Below, piece after piece: positions 2,205 through 37,819 of a DNA stretch of 64,000 bases. Origin of the DNA: a virus. Location of the stretch: the IMG/VR virus record IMGVR_UViG_3300032770_000017, positions 16,208 through 80,207 of that record, one strand, 5' to 3'. Both the position numbers and the translations under genes were made by a program. Position 1 is the stretch's first letter. Every line of letters starts with the position of its first letter. Below the pieces are notes generated by a model, which was given only the letters and a program-made list of their open reading frames with translations, did not search any database and was not told where the DNA came from.

Positions 2205-2803
2205 GCGATAACGACCGCGTCGATGAGGCAGGGAATCCGCCTATCCCTCACGACGCGGACGACCATCGCATCCCCGCCCGCAAGGCCGAATGCTGCCAGG
2301 CGCACGCCGACGAGCTGGGCCGACTCCCAATAGGTTGGTGTGGGCCGGGGTGCCTGAGAAGCAGGCTGCCTGATCCGTCACCGGGCGACAAGCTGCCGTT
2401 ACCCTTCGCGGCCATGCCCACTCAACCCGTTGAGCACTGGGCCTCGGAGCCCGAAGCCCACGATTATCCGGCCGCTCTCGACTACCTGACCCTGATGATG
2501 CCTGCCAAGCAGGCCAAGGCCGCGGTCAGGGCGCTGAAGAAGGCGCCGCTCAGCCACCGTAAGGCCAAAGACCTACTCAGGGCGTCCGGCTTGGCCGCGT
2601 TGCCCAAGACGAATGTGCACGTCGCCAAAGACCTCGCCAAGGTGGCGGGAGGGACGAAGTTGTCGCCCGTCCTCATTGTGCGCGACGACACATCGGTCGG
2701 GTCATTGCTGCTTATTGCCGACGGCTACCATCGCATTTGCGCCAGTTACATAATCGATGAGAACGCCGAAATCCCCTGTCGCCTTATCTCGTCAAAGGCG
2801 TGA
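2201..2803 (+). CDS. ParB/sulfiredoxin-like domain protein
   Basis: 200 residues, starting at the ATG of an ATGA overlap. The C-terminal half reads NVHVAKDL, LSPVLIVRDD, then LLIADGYHRICASY (about residues 172-185). That layout is the ParB/Srx fold, in which DGxHR marks the nucleotide-handling loop. Proteins of this small size occur as stand-alone genes in actinophages with unknown role. The N-terminal 60 residues are polar and low in motif content. It is translationally coupled to a VIT1/CCC1-like membrane gene. Confidence 0.6.
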   Translation: MSDNDRVDEAGNPPIPHDADDHRIPARKAECCQAHADELGRLPIGWCGPGCLRSRLPDPSPGDKLPLPFAAMPTQPVEHWASEPEAHDYPAALDYLTLMMPAKQAKAAVRALKKAPLSHRKAKDLLRASGLAALPKTNVHVAKDLAKVAGGTKLSPVLIVRDDTSVGSLLLIADGYHRICASYIIDENAEIPCRLISSKA

Positions 2804-3240
2804 CCTCTAACCGCGATGAAATCGTGTTTGGCGGGCTTGATGGCCTGACCAGTGCCCTCGGCGTGATGGCCGGCGCCTACCTCGCCAACGCCCGGGCCAA
2901 GACGGTGCTGATCACCGGGCTCGGGCTCGCCATCGCCGCGGCGGTGTCCATGGCCGGCGGTGAGGCCCTGAGCGACGAGGAGGCCGATGGGCGGATCGTG
3001 CGGGCGGCATACATGGGCGGCGCTACCTTGGTCGGGTCGTTCCTGCCGATCGCCGGGTTCATCTTCGACCGCCGTGCCGGGCTGGTGTTCTGCATCGTGA
3101 TCACGGTGTGCGTGGGCGCCACTGTTGCCCATCTGCGCCCCGGCGCCTGGTGGCCATCGATCGTCAAGACCTTCGCCGTACTGGCGGTGGCGGCTGGGCT
3201 ATCGGTGGTGGCAGCGGTCGCGATGGGGGCCACGGGTTAG
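2800..3240 (+). CDS. VIT1/CCC1-like membrane protein (possible Fe/Mn transporter)
   Basis: 146 residues; GTG at 2800 overlaps the upstream stop. Residues 8-25 read FGGLDGLTSALGVMAGAY and residues 50-58 read SMAGGEALS. Both match signature stretches of the VIT1/CCC1 family of vacuolar or cell-membrane Fe/Mn exporters, with the GE-x-LS motif after the second helix. Four hydrophobic segments are seen. The family is usually over 200 residues with a cytosolic metal-binding loop; here that loop is very short, so transport is inferred. It would act in the host membrane. A metal transporter in a phage head region is unexpected. Confidence 0.65.
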   Translation: MTSNRDEIVFGGLDGLTSALGVMAGAYLANARAKTVLITGLGLAIAAAVSMAGGEALSDEEADGRIVRAAYMGGATLVGSFLPIAGFIFDRRAGLVFCIVITVCVGATVAHLRPGAWWPSIVKTFAVLAVAAGLSVVAAVAMGATG

Positions 3241-3260
3241 GCCATCACACCCCCTCTCGT

Positions 3261-3284
3261 GCGCCCCGCATAGCGTTGCGGCGC
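3261..3284 (+). terminator. Hairpin before lipoprotein gene
   Basis: CCGCA (3266-3270) and TGCGG (3277-3281) pair around a TAGCGT loop, with further GCGC pairing outside. It lies between the VIT-like gene and the lipoprotein gene and could be a weak terminator. Confidence 0.35.
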
Positions 3285-3309
3285 CCCCTTCGGAGCGAGG
3301 AGCCCTCCC

Positions 3310-4365
3310 TTGCGCAGATTCCTACTGGCCGCCATTGCCGCTGTGCTCGTCCTCTCTGCCTGCTCGGGGGGCACGAAGGGAAAGCCGCCCGTCCCGGCTG
3401 TGTCAGGCACCGTTGTCGGCGTATCTCTTTCCGCAAATGCCGCCAATAGGTACATGGCTGCAGGCGCGGTGTGGAACGTCTTTTGCCCGAACAAGCTGAC
3501 CTCCTCGCAGATCGCCTCCAATGAGGTCCACCTCGTTTGCGCCGTCCCGGCGACGACCACGACGGCGCCCGCGACCACCACAACGGTGGCTCCCACCACG
3601 ACTCGGCCAGCGACAACCACGACGTTGCCCGGCGGCACGACGACCGTGCCCGCGACCACGACGACCACCGTTCCGGCCACCACCACGACGGTCCCGACCA
3701 GTGGCACCTGTACGAGCCCGGTGTGGTCGAGCAGCGACGCTCAGGCCACCGACAACACCGACAGCGCCGGGTACTGGTGGGTGAACAACGACGCCTGGTC
3801 GGGCAGCCACGGCCCGCAGACGATCAACGTGTGCAGCGCGTCGTCTTGGTACGCGGTGTCCAACCAGACCGATCAGCAAGGCGCGGTTGAGACCTATCCC
3901 GACACCGAGTATTTCGTCGGCGGCGGCGGTGGGGGCCACACGACCAAGACCATCTCGCAGTTCGCCAGCATCACTTCGACGTTCTCCGAGGCGTTCCCCA
4001 CCACGACCGGCTTGTCGTGGGACGCGGGCTACGACCTGTGGACGAACAACTGGACGAATGAAACGATGATCTGGAACCAGTGGGTCGGCGACCCGGGCTA
4101 CTGGCCAGGACAGGCGACCATCGCCGTGACGCTCGATGGCGTGCCCTACCACTTCCTCGACAACGGCGGCGAGCTGCTGTTCTTCAGGGACACGCAGGTC
4201 GCCTCGGGCTCCGTGGACATCCTCGCTGCCTACCAGTGGGAGGTCGCCCACGGCTACGCCAAGGCCACCGACATCCCGACCAATCTGGAGTACGGCGTGG
4301 AGGTCGTGGGCACGAACGGTGCGACCACATTCCCGCTGACCGGTCTGACCTTCAGCCTGTCGTGA
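3310..4365 (+). CDS. Lipoprotein with GH12-like glucanase domain
   Basis: 351 residues from TTG at 3310, preceded by GGAGCGAGGAG. It has a lipoprotein signal with lipobox LSAC (Cys18), then a Thr/Pro linker at about residues 80-130 made of TTTT and TTVP repeats, then a beta-rich C-terminal domain (about 133-351). That domain follows glycoside hydrolase family 12: an NN-x-W early strand, YDLWTNN, ETMIW and a final GVEVVG strand. Glu251 (ETMIW) and Glu331 (VEVVG) sit where the GH12 nucleophile and acid/base lie. It would be anchored outside the host membrane and might cut beta-glucans. The family call is by eye; a non-catalytic lectin-like role is possible. Confidence 0.6.
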   Translation: MRRFLLAAIAAVLVLSACSGGTKGKPPVPAVSGTVVGVSLSANAANRYMAAGAVWNVFCPNKLTSSQIASNEVHLVCAVPATTTTAPATTTTVAPTTTRPATTTTLPGGTTTVPATTTTTVPATTTTVPTSGTCTSPVWSSSDAQATDNTDSAGYWWVNNDAWSGSHGPQTINVCSASSWYAVSNQTDQQGAVETYPDTEYFVGGGGGGHTTKTISQFASITSTFSEAFPTTTGLSWDAGYDLWTNNWTNETMIWNQWVGDPGYWPGQATIAVTLDGVPYHFLDNGGELLFFRDTQVASGSVDILAAYQWEVAHGYAKATDIPTNLEYGVEVVGTNGATTFPLTGLTFSLS

Positions 4366-33101: not shown

Positions 33102-33626
33102 ATGGCTGGCCCCACCGGTGCGACCGGCACGACCGGATCGGTCACGCCTTCGAGCGGCCGCCTGTGCCCGGACCTGTCGATGGGCACGCTCACCATCTCG
33201 GGCGTGGAACTGGTCAACACCTATGCCTGGTCGATCACCGACCTGCGGCCCCTGTGGGACTCGGCCGATGTACGTGGCACCGACCGCATCCTGCCCGGCG
33301 TCATTGGCGTGATCCCCTATCAGCGCCGCTGGACGGTGACGAAGATTAACCTGCCCATGGTCATCTCGGGCTACGTCGACCAAGCCGGGTCGATCTATGA
33401 CAACCCCTTCGTCGGGCTGCAGGTCAACCAGGCGTACCTGCTCGACAACGTCGTCGCCCCCGTCGGTTCCAACCCTGGCACGCGCCCGGCCGTGCTCACC
33501 ATGCCTGACACCACCACGCGCTCGGGCGACGTGACGGTGGAGACGCTCAAGTTCGGGCCGATGGCCGGCGCCATCTCCTGGCCCTGCGTGCTCGTGATCA
33601 GCATCCCTGGAGGGATGCTGACGTGA
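33102..33626 (+). CDS. Distal tail / minor tail protein
   Basis: 174 residues; ATG at 33102 one base after the tape measure stop. It starts with a short [10 protein letters not shown] stretch, then MGTLTISGVELVNTYAWSIT, LPGVIGVIPYQRRWT and FVGLQVNQAYLLDNV. This is the layout of the small distal-tail-type protein that follows the tape measure in actinophages. It probably forms the ring at the tail tip. Confidence 0.65.
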   Translation: MAGPTGATGTTGSVTPSSGRLCPDLSMGTLTISGVELVNTYAWSITDLRPLWDSADVRGTDRILPGVIGVIPYQRRWTVTKINLPMVISGYVDQAGSIYDNPFVGLQVNQAYLLDNVVAPVGSNPGTRPAVLTMPDTTTRSGDVTVETLKFGPMAGAISWPCVLVISIPGGMLT

Positions 33627-33648
33627 GGCGCGGAAGGGGTGACCCGCG

Positions 33649-34056
33649 ATCAACCAAGTAACACCCTTCTGCAGGCAGGAGTTCCTCGCCGCCGCGGCCA
33701 ACTGGCAGTCCGACACATTCCGCATCGTGGCGGTGTCCTCGGGCTACTCGTTCTCCACGAGCGACCACTACCTGTCGGCCATCTCCGGTGGGGACATCAT
33801 CGCCACCTCGGCCGCGCTCACCAGCACCGACCCCACCGACGGCAACGCTTCGGCCGATCCGGTGGTGTTCTCCTCGGTCGGCGCGGGCTCGACCATCGCC
33901 GGGTTGTGGCTCTACCGCGACACGGGATCGAGCAGCACGTCGCAACTGCTGGTGTGGTGGGACCAGGACGCCACCAACTTCCCGTTGGCCATCGTCACCA
34001 ATGGTGGAGATATCACGTTGACGTTCCCAAGTGGGGGGACCTTATTTATACTATGA
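33649..34056 (+). CDS. Virion protein with non-standard start, 3' end duplicated by HNH insertion
   Basis: 135 residues if started at ATC 33649. The frame is blocked by TGA at 33640, and the next usual start, GTG 33727, would remove QEFLAAAANWQSDTFRIVAV, which is conserved in this actinophage virion family (FL-x3-A-x-W-x2-D-T-x-K/R-V). AAGGGG lies about ten bases before the ATC. The C-terminus GGDITLTFPSGGTLFIL is family-typical. A second copy of this 3' end lies after the HNH gene at 34746-34783. An early frameshift is the alternative explanation. Confidence 0.55.
   Translation: MNQVTPFCRQEFLAAAANWQSDTFRIVAVSSGYSFSTSDHYLSAISGGDIIATSAALTSTDPTDGNASADPVVFSSVGAGSTIAGLWLYRDTGSSSTSQLLVWWDQDATNFPLAIVTNGGDITLTFPSGGTLFIL
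34019..34056 (+). repeat. Left copy of 38-bp gene-end duplication flanking HNH
   Basis: From TGACGTTCCC to the stop, this copy matches 28 of 38 bases of 34746-34783. It encodes TFPSGGTLFIL plus stop and is more AT-rich than the gene body. Confidence 0.8.
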
Positions 34057-34072
34057 CGTCGCCCTCGTTTGC

Positions 34073-34078
34073 TATGAT
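34073..34078 (+). promoter_or_regulatory. TATGAT -10 box for HNH gene
   Basis: TATGAT is followed by seven bases and then the ATG at 34086, the leaderless layout seen for other genes in the window. Confidence 0.45.
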
Positions 34079-34085
34079 GTTGTCC

Positions 34086-34748
34086 ATGCGAACCAAATCT
34101 CCGCTCGTTTACGAGGATGAGCATGGGCAGTGGTGGTACAAGACGGCGACCGGTGCTCGGCAGCGCGCTGTGATACGGAATTGCTCCACCTGTGGTGAGC
34201 AATTCGTGTGCAGGTCAACAAAGGCGAGCCCCTTCTGTTCGGAGGCATGCTGGCGACGTACATGCCTGACCTGCAACACGGTGTTCACCCCATCAACGAC
34301 ACGGCAGCAATATTGCAGCTACAAGTGCCGGCGCGGGACGCGCACCTGTATCGAGTGCGGACGTGTGTTTATTACCGTGGCAAACAGCCATGGGAAATAT
34401 TGCTCGCAGGAGTGCCACTACAACCACAAGGTGCCGGTTGGGTCCGTCCGGTTACTCAAGCGAACCGGTTACACCATAATCAAGCTCCCCTTTGGCCGCT
34501 ATGGCGGGGCAGGTGGCAAATATCGTCGTGAGCATTGGATGCTAGAGCATCGATACGTGATGGAGCAGATAATTGGGCGACCACTTCTCCCGTCCGAGCA
34601 TGTTCACCACAAGAACGGCGATCGCGCGGATAACCGTCCAGAGAATCTAGAGCTCTGGAAGAACAAGAGCGGTAAGGGCGGGCATCCCTACGGCGTTCGT
34701 CTTGACGATTATCACTGTCCCGGTTGCCGATGCGGGGAAGATCGATGA
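34086..34748 (+). CDS. HNH homing endonuclease inserted at a gene's 3' end
   Basis: 220 residues. The N-terminal half has three C-x2-C...C-x3-C knuckles (about residues 33-58, 60-80 and 88-110). The C-terminal half has EHRYVMEQIIGRPLLPSEHV and HHKNGDRADNRPENLELW, a clear HNH core. Its codons are more AT-rich than those of its neighbours. The stop TGA is also the first bases of the right-hand copy of the interrupted gene's 3' end, so the insertion kept a complete host gene on its left. Confidence 0.9.
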   Translation: MRTKSPLVYEDEHGQWWYKTATGARQRAVIRNCSTCGEQFVCRSTKASPFCSEACWRRTCLTCNTVFTPSTTRQQYCSYKCRRGTRTCIECGRVFITVANSHGKYCSQECHYNHKVPVGSVRLLKRTGYTIIKLPFGRYGGAGGKYRREHWMLEHRYVMEQIIGRPLLPSEHVHHKNGDRADNRPENLELWKNKSGKGGHPYGVRLDDYHCPGCRCGEDR

Positions 34749-34783
34749 CGTTCCCGAGCGGCGGGACCTTGTTCGTTCTTTAG
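34746..34783 (+). repeat. Right copy of gene-end duplication (likely original 3' end)
   Basis: Encodes TFPSGGTLFVL plus stop in GC-rich codons like the body of the gene at 33649. It is probably the displaced original end of that gene. Confidence 0.8.
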
Positions 34784-34785
34784 CG

Positions 34786-35085
34786 ATGCCGTCCTCCACC
34801 GTCGCCGCAGCGCCCGCTCAGAGCCTCACAGAGGCCCCCATCTCGTCGTCGAGCTACACGGTCAACACCGTCTACCCGCCCGCCTCTGGCGCCCTTGCAG
34901 CGGCCCCTATCGCCCTCGCCGCACTGGACACCGTCACCGGCGCGCCGGCTGTGGCTCTAGCCGCGGCCGGAGTGCCACCGAGCCCCAACTCCACCACAGC
35001 GGCCGTAGCTGCCGGTGCGCTCAGCGCCACGCCTGGGCCGACTGTCGTGACGCCGACCTCCTACGTGATCGGGACGGCGACATGA
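34786..35085 (+). CDS. Ala/Thr-rich small protein, unknown
   Basis: 99 residues; ATG at 34786, three bases after the orphan gene end. Low complexity: AAAPAQSLTEAP, ALAAAPIALAALDT, AAVAAGALSATPGP. The style is like the protein at 26271. It overlaps the next gene in an ATGA junction. It is probably a virion linker; no known domain. Confidence 0.5.
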   Translation: MPSSTVAAAPAQSLTEAPISSSSYTVNTVYPPASGALAAAPIALAALDTVTGAPAVALAAAGVPPSPNSTTAAVAAGALSATPGPTVVTPTSYVIGTAT

Positions 35086-36368
35086 CCGGCGCGGTGGCCT
35101 TCGGGCCCACGATCACCCAAAGCGGCATCACCCCGCCGCCTGTCTACACACCGGCGATCACCTGCGGGGTCTACGACCGCTCGGGGACGTTGCTCAAGGC
35201 GCTCCCCAACTCCTACAACCGCCACTGGCAGGACCAGCTCAATGTGGAGGGCACCGGCTCGGCGGTGGTGCAGATATTCGACCCGACCACGGAATTGATC
35301 GTGTCGTGCGACATCCCATGGCGCTCTATCCTGATCTTCTCGATCGACACCATCCCTCGCTACGCCTCGATCATCGAGCACATGGTGGAGAAGCTCGTCG
35401 CCCAGGGCGAAGAGGTGGACGAGACGCTGGAACTGTCCGGGCGCGGGACGTTGGCGCTGTTCGAGGAGGCGGTCTGCTACCCGGAGAACGGCCTCAGCCG
35501 CCAACCCTTCACCGACACCCGCCTGTTCTCCTACGCGTCGATCGACTTCGATGACTCCATGTGGGCCTCGGCCGTGCAAGTCAAGCTCCAATCGGACCCG
35601 ACCTCGGGCCTGCCGTGGGACGGGGCGCCACAGGACTGGCCGGACCACAACGCCTATTGGATCTGGGACCGCGCGGTCACTTCCGCCACGCCCTGGCCGA
35701 CGGGCAATGTGTACTTCCGAAAGCAGATCACCATTCCCTCCGGTGGCGATGTGGTGCGGTTCTTCATCACCGCCGACGATGGTTTCGAGTTGTACGTGGA
35801 CGGCGGCCTGCTCCAGAGCGACACCGAGGCGTACCTGTGGGGGGTGACCAGACAGGTCGATCTCTTCCTCGACAGTGGGACTCATCTCGTCGCGATCAAG
35901 GGCACGAACCTGTCGCGGGCCTCGTCGAGCACGAACTATGCCGGCATCATCTGCTCGATGTACGTCGCCAATGGCGACGGCTCGCTGGGCGGCCTCATCG
36001 CCCACACCGACTCGTCATGGAAGATGCTTGCCTATCCGCCCAATCCGCCTGGCTACACCGTGGGGCAGATCCTGCGCATCCTCACCGAAGAGGCCCAGGC
36101 GCGGGGGACGCTATCAGGGATCAGTCTTTCGTTCAATGACACCAACGACTCCAACGGCGTTCCCTGGGCGACGCTGGCCGAGGTGCCGATACAGGTGGGC
36201 GACGACATGCTGACCACGATCAAGCAATTGGCTTCGGCCTATTGCGACGTGGCCATGGGCATCGGCACGCCCGTCCTGTTCGCCTACAACACGCGCGGCA
36301 GTTCGGTGAGCACCACCTTCTCCCGCGGCGTGAACCTGGGCGACTGGACGCAGGATGGCGCGGTCTAA
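35082..36368 (+). CDS. Minor tail protein (Gp37-like), N-terminal part with PA14-like insert
   Basis: 428 residues. The N-terminus (LLKALPNSYNRHWQDQLNVEGTGSAVV...STIEHMVEK-like) follows the siphovirus Gp37-like tail family. Residues about 165-310 (YFRKQITIPSGG, FFITADDGFELYVDGG, SGTHLVAIKGTNLS) are a PA14/lectin-like insert. The end, GVNLGDWTQDGAV, stops abruptly where homologous proteins go on. The missing part seems to be encoded after the HNH gene. The tail protein is therefore probably split by the insertion. Confidence 0.7.
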   Translation: MTGAVAFGPTITQSGITPPPVYTPAITCGVYDRSGTLLKALPNSYNRHWQDQLNVEGTGSAVVQIFDPTTELIVSCDIPWRSILIFSIDTIPRYASIIEHMVEKLVAQGEEVDETLELSGRGTLALFEEAVCYPENGLSRQPFTDTRLFSYASIDFDDSMWASAVQVKLQSDPTSGLPWDGAPQDWPDHNAYWIWDRAVTSATPWPTGNVYFRKQITIPSGGDVVRFFITADDGFELYVDGGLLQSDTEAYLWGVTRQVDLFLDSGTHLVAIKGTNLSRASSSTNYAGIICSMYVANGDGSLGGLIAHTDSSWKMLAYPPNPPGYTVGQILRILTEEAQARGTLSGISLSFNDTNDSNGVPWATLAEVPIQVGDDMLTTIKQLASAYCDVAMGIGTPVLFAYNTRGSSVSTTFSRGVNLGDWTQDGAV

Positions 36369-36399
36369 ATGGCCCAGAACGGTATGCTTGAACGACGTT

Positions 36400-36428
36400 G
36401 TCCCCGCGCTGCTGGCGCAGCCGGGGAC
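36400..36428 (+). terminator. Very strong hairpin upstream of HNH
   Basis: GTCCCCG (36400-36406) pairs with CGGGGAC (36422-36428) and GCTGC (36408-36412) with GCAGC (36417-36421) around TGGC. That gives twelve pairs with one bulge. It could be a terminator or part of the mobile element's RNA. Confidence 0.55.
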
Positions 36429-36455
36429 GTGCCCGAACCTTGCTGGAGGTCCGAG

Positions 36456-36998
36456 ATGGTCAAGCGTATATGCCTCAAGCCCGATTGTGGTCGTCCGGTG
36501 CTCGCGCGGGGTCTTTGCGGTCGTCACTATCAGCAGTACCGCAATAGTCCCGAATGGCAGCCGATGGAGCCTTTGACTGTAGAGCAACGGTTTTGGATGA
36601 AGGTCACCACGCAGGGCAGTATCCCGCCGTTCCGTCCAGACCTAGGACCATGTTACGAATGGACAGGAGGCAAAGGACATGGCGGTTATGCACTGTTCCA
36701 TCCTGTCGCGGGCGTATCCGCTCCTGCTTACCGATGGATTTATGAGCAGGAGAACGGAGCAGTCCCCAAGGGACTTGAGTTGGATCATCTGTGCCGAAAC
36801 CCTGGTTGTGTGCGTCCATCGCACTTAGAGGCCGTCACTCACCTGGAGAACGTTCGGCGTGGGGTTGATGCCTACGAACTGAAGGACACCTGTCGACGTG
36901 GTCATTCCATGATTGGAGTGACTCCGTCGAGCGATGGCTACCGCCATTGTCTTGCCTGTCGCCGATTGACGTGGCGTGCGAGGAGGGGAAGGACATAG
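36456..36998 (+). CDS. HNH homing endonuclease splitting a minor tail gene
   Basis: 180 residues; ATG at 36456 has GGAGG eight bases upstream. It begins with a C-x4-C...LCGRHYQQY knuckle. The core has YEWTGGKGHGGYALFHPVAG, AYRWIYEQENGAVPKGLELD, HLCRNPGCVRPSHLEAVT, and a C-terminal CRRGHSM...CLACRR zinc part: the HNH_3 type with Cys ligands. Its 3' end overlaps the downstream tail fragment. The frame is also open back to 36369, but that part is not typical HNH sequence. Confidence 0.88.
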   Translation: MVKRICLKPDCGRPVLARGLCGRHYQQYRNSPEWQPMEPLTVEQRFWMKVTTQGSIPPFRPDLGPCYEWTGGKGHGGYALFHPVAGVSAPAYRWIYEQENGAVPKGLELDHLCRNPGCVRPSHLEAVTHLENVRRGVDAYELKDTCRRGHSMIGVTPSSDGYRHCLACRRLTWRARRGRT

Positions 36999-37819
36999 CA
37001 CAGAACGTTCTGACGAGCCTCTTGATCCGATGGGCCGGCGGGTTCACCTCGGTCGATGATGCCGATGGGATCGCGTCGTTCGGCGTGATCGAAGGGTTCC
37101 TGTCGCTCGGCAACGTCATCGACGAGGCCACGGCCATCACGTTGGGGAACGCAGTGCTCGCCGATCAGGCATCAGTGCAGCTCACGCAGACGGGCACCAT
37201 TCAGCCCGCAGGGAGTAGCGATACGCCGTATGTCGGTTTCAACGTGGGCGATGTCGTCACTGCGCCCGACCTCTGTCTCGAAGAGGACGTGTTCCGCGTC
37301 CAGACGATCCAGGTGCAGGAGGACCAGGAGGGCAACCCGATCTACCCGGTGCAGGTCGGCACGCAGCAACAGATCCGAGACGTGCGCATCCAATCGTGGC
37401 TGCAGCGGATGAACGCCGGCACGCTGGCGGGTACTGCGCAGTCGGCCGCCCCGGCTTCCGGTTCCACACCGCCTGCGGCCACCACGCAGGGGATCCAGAA
37501 CGTCTGGCATATGCCGGGCTCGCTCACGGTGATGACCTCCGACGATTGGTCGCCGCCGCGCTCGGGGACGATGATCCGCCTCGACCTGCGCCTCACCACG
37601 GCCGGGTCAACGGCGACCACGGTCATCCTGTCGATCAACCACACCACGGTGATCGGGTCGAGCACGATTGCCGCTGGCCAGAACATCCCGACGACGCCCT
37701 TGCTGCTTGACACGCCCGTACTCGGTGTGGGTACGCCGAACGCGACGATCATCAACCTCTACGTGATGACGGCGGGGACTGGCGCGGCCGGGCTGGTGAT
37801 GACGCTCACCATTCTCTAA
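36995..37819 (+). CDS. Minor tail protein, C-terminal part separated by HNH
   Basis: About 274 residues. AQNVLTSLLIRWAGGFTSVD, FGVIEGFLSLGNVIDEATAI and PYVGFNVGDVVTAPD look like the continuation of Gp37-like tail proteins, so this is the second half of the gene at 35082. The start is uncertain: AGGAGGGG (36981-36988) is ideally spaced for an ATA codon at 36995, GTG 36971 and TTG 36947 lack such a site. ATAGCACAGAACG here resembles ATGGCCCAGAACG at 36369, left of the HNH gene. Confidence 0.6.
   Translation: MAQNVLTSLLIRWAGGFTSVDDADGIASFGVIEGFLSLGNVIDEATAITLGNAVLADQASVQLTQTGTIQPAGSSDTPYVGFNVGDVVTAPDLCLEEDVFRVQTIQVQEDQEGNPIYPVQVGTQQQIRDVRIQSWLQRMNAGTLAGTAQSAAPASGSTPPAATTQGIQNVWHMPGSLTVMTSDDWSPPRSGTMIRLDLRLTTAGSTATTVILSINHTTVIGSSTIAAGQNIPTTPLLLDTPVLGVGTPNATIINLYVMTAGTGAAGLVMTLTIL

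Follow-up and report, generated by a model that had tools for sequence, protein, structure and literature searches.

The HNH endonuclease gene described here is very probably a free-standing homing element lodged in the 3' end of a phrog_644 family gene. It would move as a two-part unit, consisting of a recoded gene end followed by the HNH gene, through a cycle of cutting and repair in which the target site is lost on both sides. The gene lies in the window, i.e., the whole stretch of 64,000 nucleotides that was analysed, which belongs to an IMG/VR virus record of 80,207 bases.

Organization of the locus

The relevant features of the window are the following.

33646..34056, + strand: target gene, coding for a phrog_644 family tail-region protein (phrog_644 match, E 1.8e-23), completed by a putatively imported 3' end
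34000..34056, + strand: recoded 3' tract of the target, 18 codons plus stop, delimited by a break in GC3; analogous tracts are foreign according to empty-site pairs
34021-34056, + strand: left copy of the repeated gene end, TFPSGGTLFIL plus stop (ACG TTC CCA AGT GGG GGG ACC TTA TTT ATA CTA TGA)
34073..34078, + strand: -10-like box TATGAT, 7 nt upstream of the likely HNH start; a leaderless transcript is suspected
34086..34748, + strand: HNH endonuclease gene with zinc-ribbon motifs, an HNH_3 domain and C-terminal DYHCPGCRC; start chosen by alignment with relatives, alternative in-frame start at 34053
34748-34783, + strand: right copy, TFPSGGTLFVL plus stop (ACG TTC CCG AGC GGC GGG ACC TTG TTC GTT CTT TAG), presumably the severed native target end, judged from relatives

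The target product comprises 136 residues and ends at a position common to relatives from many phages; members of the family are present in the tail regions of phages of Mycobacterium, Pseudomonas, and others. At the position of the family N-terminus (33626-33730), no ATG, GTG or TTG codon is found and the frame opens with ...GCG ATC AAC CAA..., while use of the first common start codon would drop about 27 residues. A rare start codon, a frameshift, or a sequence error are the alternatives to account for the missing usual start.

The HNH product of 220 residues contains several zinc-ribbon motifs, and its HNH_3 domain matches PF13392 with an E value of 1.7e-9 (37.6 bits, as compared to the curated cut-off of 24.8). 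Its structure model (mean pLDDT 79.9, pTM 0.50) gave no PDB match at E ≤ 0.001 in the fold search, and PDB searches by sequence and fold yielded nothing beyond weak or chance zinc-finger matches. Boxes resembling a -10 element also occur 6-7 nt upstream of most HNH starts in relatives, with a mean match of 4.07/6 versus 2.49 in shuffled sequence, a pattern to be taken with caution because it was spotted first and tested afterwards. The HNH gene may thus possess its own promoter and give rise to a leaderless message.

The next tail gene is interrupted by a second, different HNH gene (phrog_826-like) at 36369-36998; the portions of the tail gene at 35082-36368 and 36947-37819 correspond to two segments of a minor tail protein that is continuous in Arthrobacter phage Kitkat (gp36; phrog_31834). 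The flanks of this HNH gene show a short likeness (GCCCAGAACGGT / GCACAGAACGTT), and an Rfam search found no intron RNA at this insertion.

The repeated gene end

The sequence coding for TFPSGGTLF(I/V)L plus stop is the top-ranking direct repeat of the region. Its two copies are identical at 26 of 36 bases; four of the 11 sense codons are the same, six differ synonymously, and one exchanges Ile for Val. The tail of the upstream gene, aligned with the peptide to the right of the HNH gene, scored 59, the maximum among 5,796 mismatched pairs being 42, and chance is excluded as the origin of the repeat. The initial annotation had described a duplicated target 3' end with mostly synonymous changes, and this repeat is confirmed; it had placed the right copy after the HNH stop codon, which has to be corrected, since the copy overlaps that codon (TGA, 34746-34748) by one base. 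The compositional contrast noted at the same time, i.e., a GC-rich right copy resembling the gene body and a left copy that is AT-rich like the HNH gene, is borne out by the GC3 values, which fall from 0.92 over the first 118 codons of the target to 0.44 over its last 18 (from 34000; likelihood ratio 21.7); the right copy has a GC3 of 0.82, and the HNH gene one of 0.65.

By analogy with the layout and composition of the related loci described below, the left end in the window is probably the import and the right copy the native end. An alignment-led search for relatives of the window target returned 46% amino acid identity at best and no close HNH-free relative, and a single-protein search retrieved no relative from IMG/VR; with relatives absent or at ≤46% identity, the window has no direct empty site of its own.

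Recurrence of the layout in other loci

The comparison was based on HNH proteins retrieved from IMG/VR that have the C-terminal motif DYHC(P/A)GC in common. Genes of this subfamily are located directly 3' of, and in the same orientation as, a phrog_644 gene in 12 loci (window, L003, L013, L014, L015, L017, L018, L019, L020, L166, L265, and L268). A right-hand remnant is retained in seven of them: TFPSGGTLFVL in the window, KILKVG in L003, TISASGLFYTQQ in L015, NASGIFAL in L020, L166, and L265, and NVSGIFQL in L268. The order imported in-frame C-terminus, nuclease open reading frame, native C-terminal remnant occurs in the window and six further loci; in the other five of the 12, a clear remnant is absent. 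The layout of L166, described below, recurs in L003, L015, L020, L265, and L268. No clear AT shift is apparent in the tracts of L003 and L013. The right junctions of L020, L166, L265, and L268 fall at an identical position, between TGG and AAY.

The locus L095 exhibits the same pattern with an HNH gene of another branch in a DNA methylase gene, the left end reading VSCNVAHFLGKAIAAVL plus stop and the right end VSANVANWLGRAIAEVL plus stop, so that the effect goes beyond phrog_644 genes. In this locus, the HNH gene and the 18-residue duplicated C-terminus of the methylase lie within 2509-3524. HNH genes of other branches were also observed directly 3' of phrog_644 in Pseudomonas phage and prophage loci (L028/L336 and L179), the gene end of L179 likewise being AT-rich. 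The phrog_644 gene followed by an HNH gene in L287 has a native-looking end, and in L016, L266, and L267, where such HNH genes are present, no adjacent phrog_644 gene was found. The pattern matches in L260-L263 turned out to be spurious occurrences of DYHCPGC in unrelated DNA. A duplication test on 146 HNH genes produced one false lead, L068, owing to low-complexity, R- and P-rich sequence.

HNH-free relatives and the origin of the two copies

A target-led search for the L020 target yielded another 79 relatives, all of them devoid of the HNH gene except L166; nearly all relatives of this target terminate in (T/V)WNASGIF(A/Q)L. The clearest empty-site pair consists of L166 and the HNH-free L161, whose target proteins are identical except for 1 of 134 residues. 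Their gene bodies are 96.6% identical at the DNA level, as compared to 70.5% over the last 26 codons, where 21 codons are changed, all synonymously and none nonsynonymously; GC3 of this tract is 0.38 against 0.85. In L166, the HNH stop is followed by the native end and the native downstream sequence of L161. Likewise, the native end and downstream DNA found in the HNH-free loci L124 and L165 stand behind the HNH genes of L265 and L268.

A second pair involves another HNH branch and comes from the Pseudomonas group (L336/L331) that stands nearest to phages in culture. The target gene of the Pseudomonas phage locus L336 differs from that of L331 by 15 synonymous and no other changes in the last 21 codons (GC3 0.43 versus 1.00); here the native end is gone, and the right junction lies 53 nt past the native stop. 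Occupied and empty alleles of one site thus exist in close relatives in both cases. In these relatives, the native copy is the one on the right, and the left end has been imported. The proposal that the element brings a replacement 3' end which keeps the target intact is supported in these relatives by the synonymous recoding between L166 and L161 and by the native remnant after the HNH gene.

Proposed mode of insertion

The empty-site pairs, the recoding, and the native remnant together define the mobile unit as a recoded copy of the last ~13-26 codons of the target, including the stop, followed by the HNH gene. We propose that the nuclease probably cuts, or nicks, the native gene end in a relative lacking the HNH gene, presumably near the junction of TGG and AAC, and that repair copies the unit in. 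The right-hand broken end would pair with the native remnant of the donor, which offers immediate homology because it is flush with the HNH stop. The left-hand end would be trimmed through the non-matching recoded codons until homology is reached in the gene body, and repair would copy tract and HNH gene in together. The target protein would stay complete, and the cut site would be lost twice, on the left by recoding and on the right by separation from its upstream half. The architecture, the recoding, the identity of the native copy in relatives, the repeated occurrence, and the constant junctions are directly observed, whereas cleavage, repair route, and immunity are inferred.

If so, a nuclease gene lacking both intron and intein can occupy the terminal coding part of a phage gene at low cost, and the target site of the nuclease may vanish in the same step. 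The question is directly testable because a defined, mostly synonymous set of codons distinguishes the recoded ends from the native ones. For annotation, the finding implies that some 3' ends of phage genes are imported together with a neighbouring HNH gene.

Linkage of tract and HNH gene, and alternative explanations

In a tree of the gene bodies calculated without the 3' end, the five rows carrying an HNH gene are scattered and require at least 4 gains or losses, a patchy distribution as known for homing genes. At equal divergence of the bodies, similarity is 0.75 between tracts, 0.66-0.67 between tracts and HNH-free ends, and 0.74-0.75 among HNH-free ends, which fits a tract that travels together with its HNH gene. 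The contrast between tract and body in L020, L265, L268, and L019 is not extreme when these loci are taken singly, because only distant relatives are available.

Ordinary co-conversion, in which flanking DNA is dragged along from a divergent donor phage and the tract hitchhikes without a role in rescue or immunity, is an unlikely alternative. Transfer of flanks is standard in phage homing (PMC2988022), and an old, diverged tract would require nothing but linkage to the HNH gene. However, the tracts are short and have similar end points (~13-26 codons) across unrelated hosts, and their best match among the HNH-free genes compared does not exceed 0.82. Moreover, 61 of 63 HNH-free genes have an Asn codon to the right of the junction, where four of five elements (L020, L265, L268, and L019) have a Ser codon. 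ATA encodes the terminal Ile in 8 of 10 HNH-associated ends (L179 included), among others in L166, versus 5 of 106 HNH-free ends. The junction Ser and the terminal ATA would fit changes that spoil the nuclease site, although AT drift could also cause the ATA bias. At the presumed cut position, the Asn codon is replaced by AGC (Ser) in two HNH-free loci, L165 and L169; these are possibly resistant alleles or leftovers of HNH loss. Co-conversion is partly compatible with the element proposed here, since it accounts for the origin of the tract, but not for a gene that always ends complete.

A tandem duplication of the 3' end preceding insertion of the HNH gene between the copies would result in the identical order of parts, but is highly improbable. 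HNH-free relatives already carrying two copies, which the initial annotation had named as the counter-evidence to look for, did not turn up: a second copy of the 3' end within 1 kb was present at 0 of 153 HNH-free phrog_644 loci from both target sets. Besides, the right copy begins inside the HNH stop or within a few bases of it in six independent loci. A self-splicing intron, with the likeness of the left end to the right exon as its signature, a reading that was weighed for the ShiLan domain (PMC11855218), can be dismissed with similar assurance, as an Rfam search of the insertion detected no group I or group II intron RNA at E values up to 1, and splicing is unnecessary because the left copy, with its own stop, already encodes a protein that is full-length by family comparison.

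Comparison with known systems

Replacement of a gene end is surprising for phages, the clear precedents being mitochondrial or engineered. It is not described in the phage homing papers covered by our keyword search, a search restricted largely to sources outside the subscription journals. Among free-standing phage homing endonucleases, the Seg and Mob enzymes of T4, which mediate intronless homing (PMC2988022), and the HNH insertions of Cluster J phages (PMC3706429) share with the present element the absence of intron and intein, the position next to the presumed target, and the patchy distribution; in the passages searched, they differ in that insertion is intergenic and accompanied by co-conversion of flanks, rather than replacing a 3' end and leaving the native end behind.

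The ShiLan domain is a homing insertion with a hidden HNH in a mycobacteriophage DNA methylase (Arsenault et al. 2025, PMC11855218), and its HNH is related to that of the window (about 33% identity over half of the window HNH). Its authors noted a resemblance between the 11 residues that open the insertion and the 11 to the right of the site, and found little support for an intron. We confirmed this type of repeat in Pollywog gp67 (L349), where the insertion begins with a diverged copy (SYEPVCVAVKP / AFEPIVVARKP). The ShiLan insertion is located mid-gene and is in frame without a stop, its HNH being out of frame, and its authors considered the duplication as a potential signature of an intron rather than as a replacement. 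In contrast, the window target is not read through but stops at 34054-34056, before the HNH body. Replacement of a gene end nevertheless offers a reading for the unexplained end-similarity in the published ShiLan methylase insertion.

Among systems that are understood, the closest is the mobile endonuclease ORF with C-terminal duplication of fungal mitochondria, as described for atp6 of Allomyces macrogynus and for atp6, atp9, cox2, and nad3 of Glomus (Beaudet et al. 2013, PMC3630166). In both systems, an endonuclease ORF has inserted close to the 3' end of its host gene, the gene body is joined in frame to a C-terminus of foreign or recoded origin, the severed native end remains downstream, and the copies diverge mostly synonymously. 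The mitochondrial ORFs code for LAGLIDADG or GIY-YIG enzymes and bring longer C-termini, whereas the phage element has a zinc-ribbon HNH, a short tract, and possibly its own promoter. It thus appears to work like a mitochondrial mobile ORF, but is not assigned to that class because of its HNH_3 nuclease and its location in phage DNA.

The engineered home-and-rescue gene drives termed HomeR (PMC7968924), which use Cas9 in Drosophila, likewise couple a nuclease to a functional, recoded remainder of the gene that it targets, the likeness to these engineered constructs being one of analogy only. On balance, we favor the view that the HNH elements of this phage family act as natural home-and-rescue drives, in which the recoded remainder would be immune to the nuclease and the protein would remain intact, and which would also explain the end-similarity of the ShiLan insertion.
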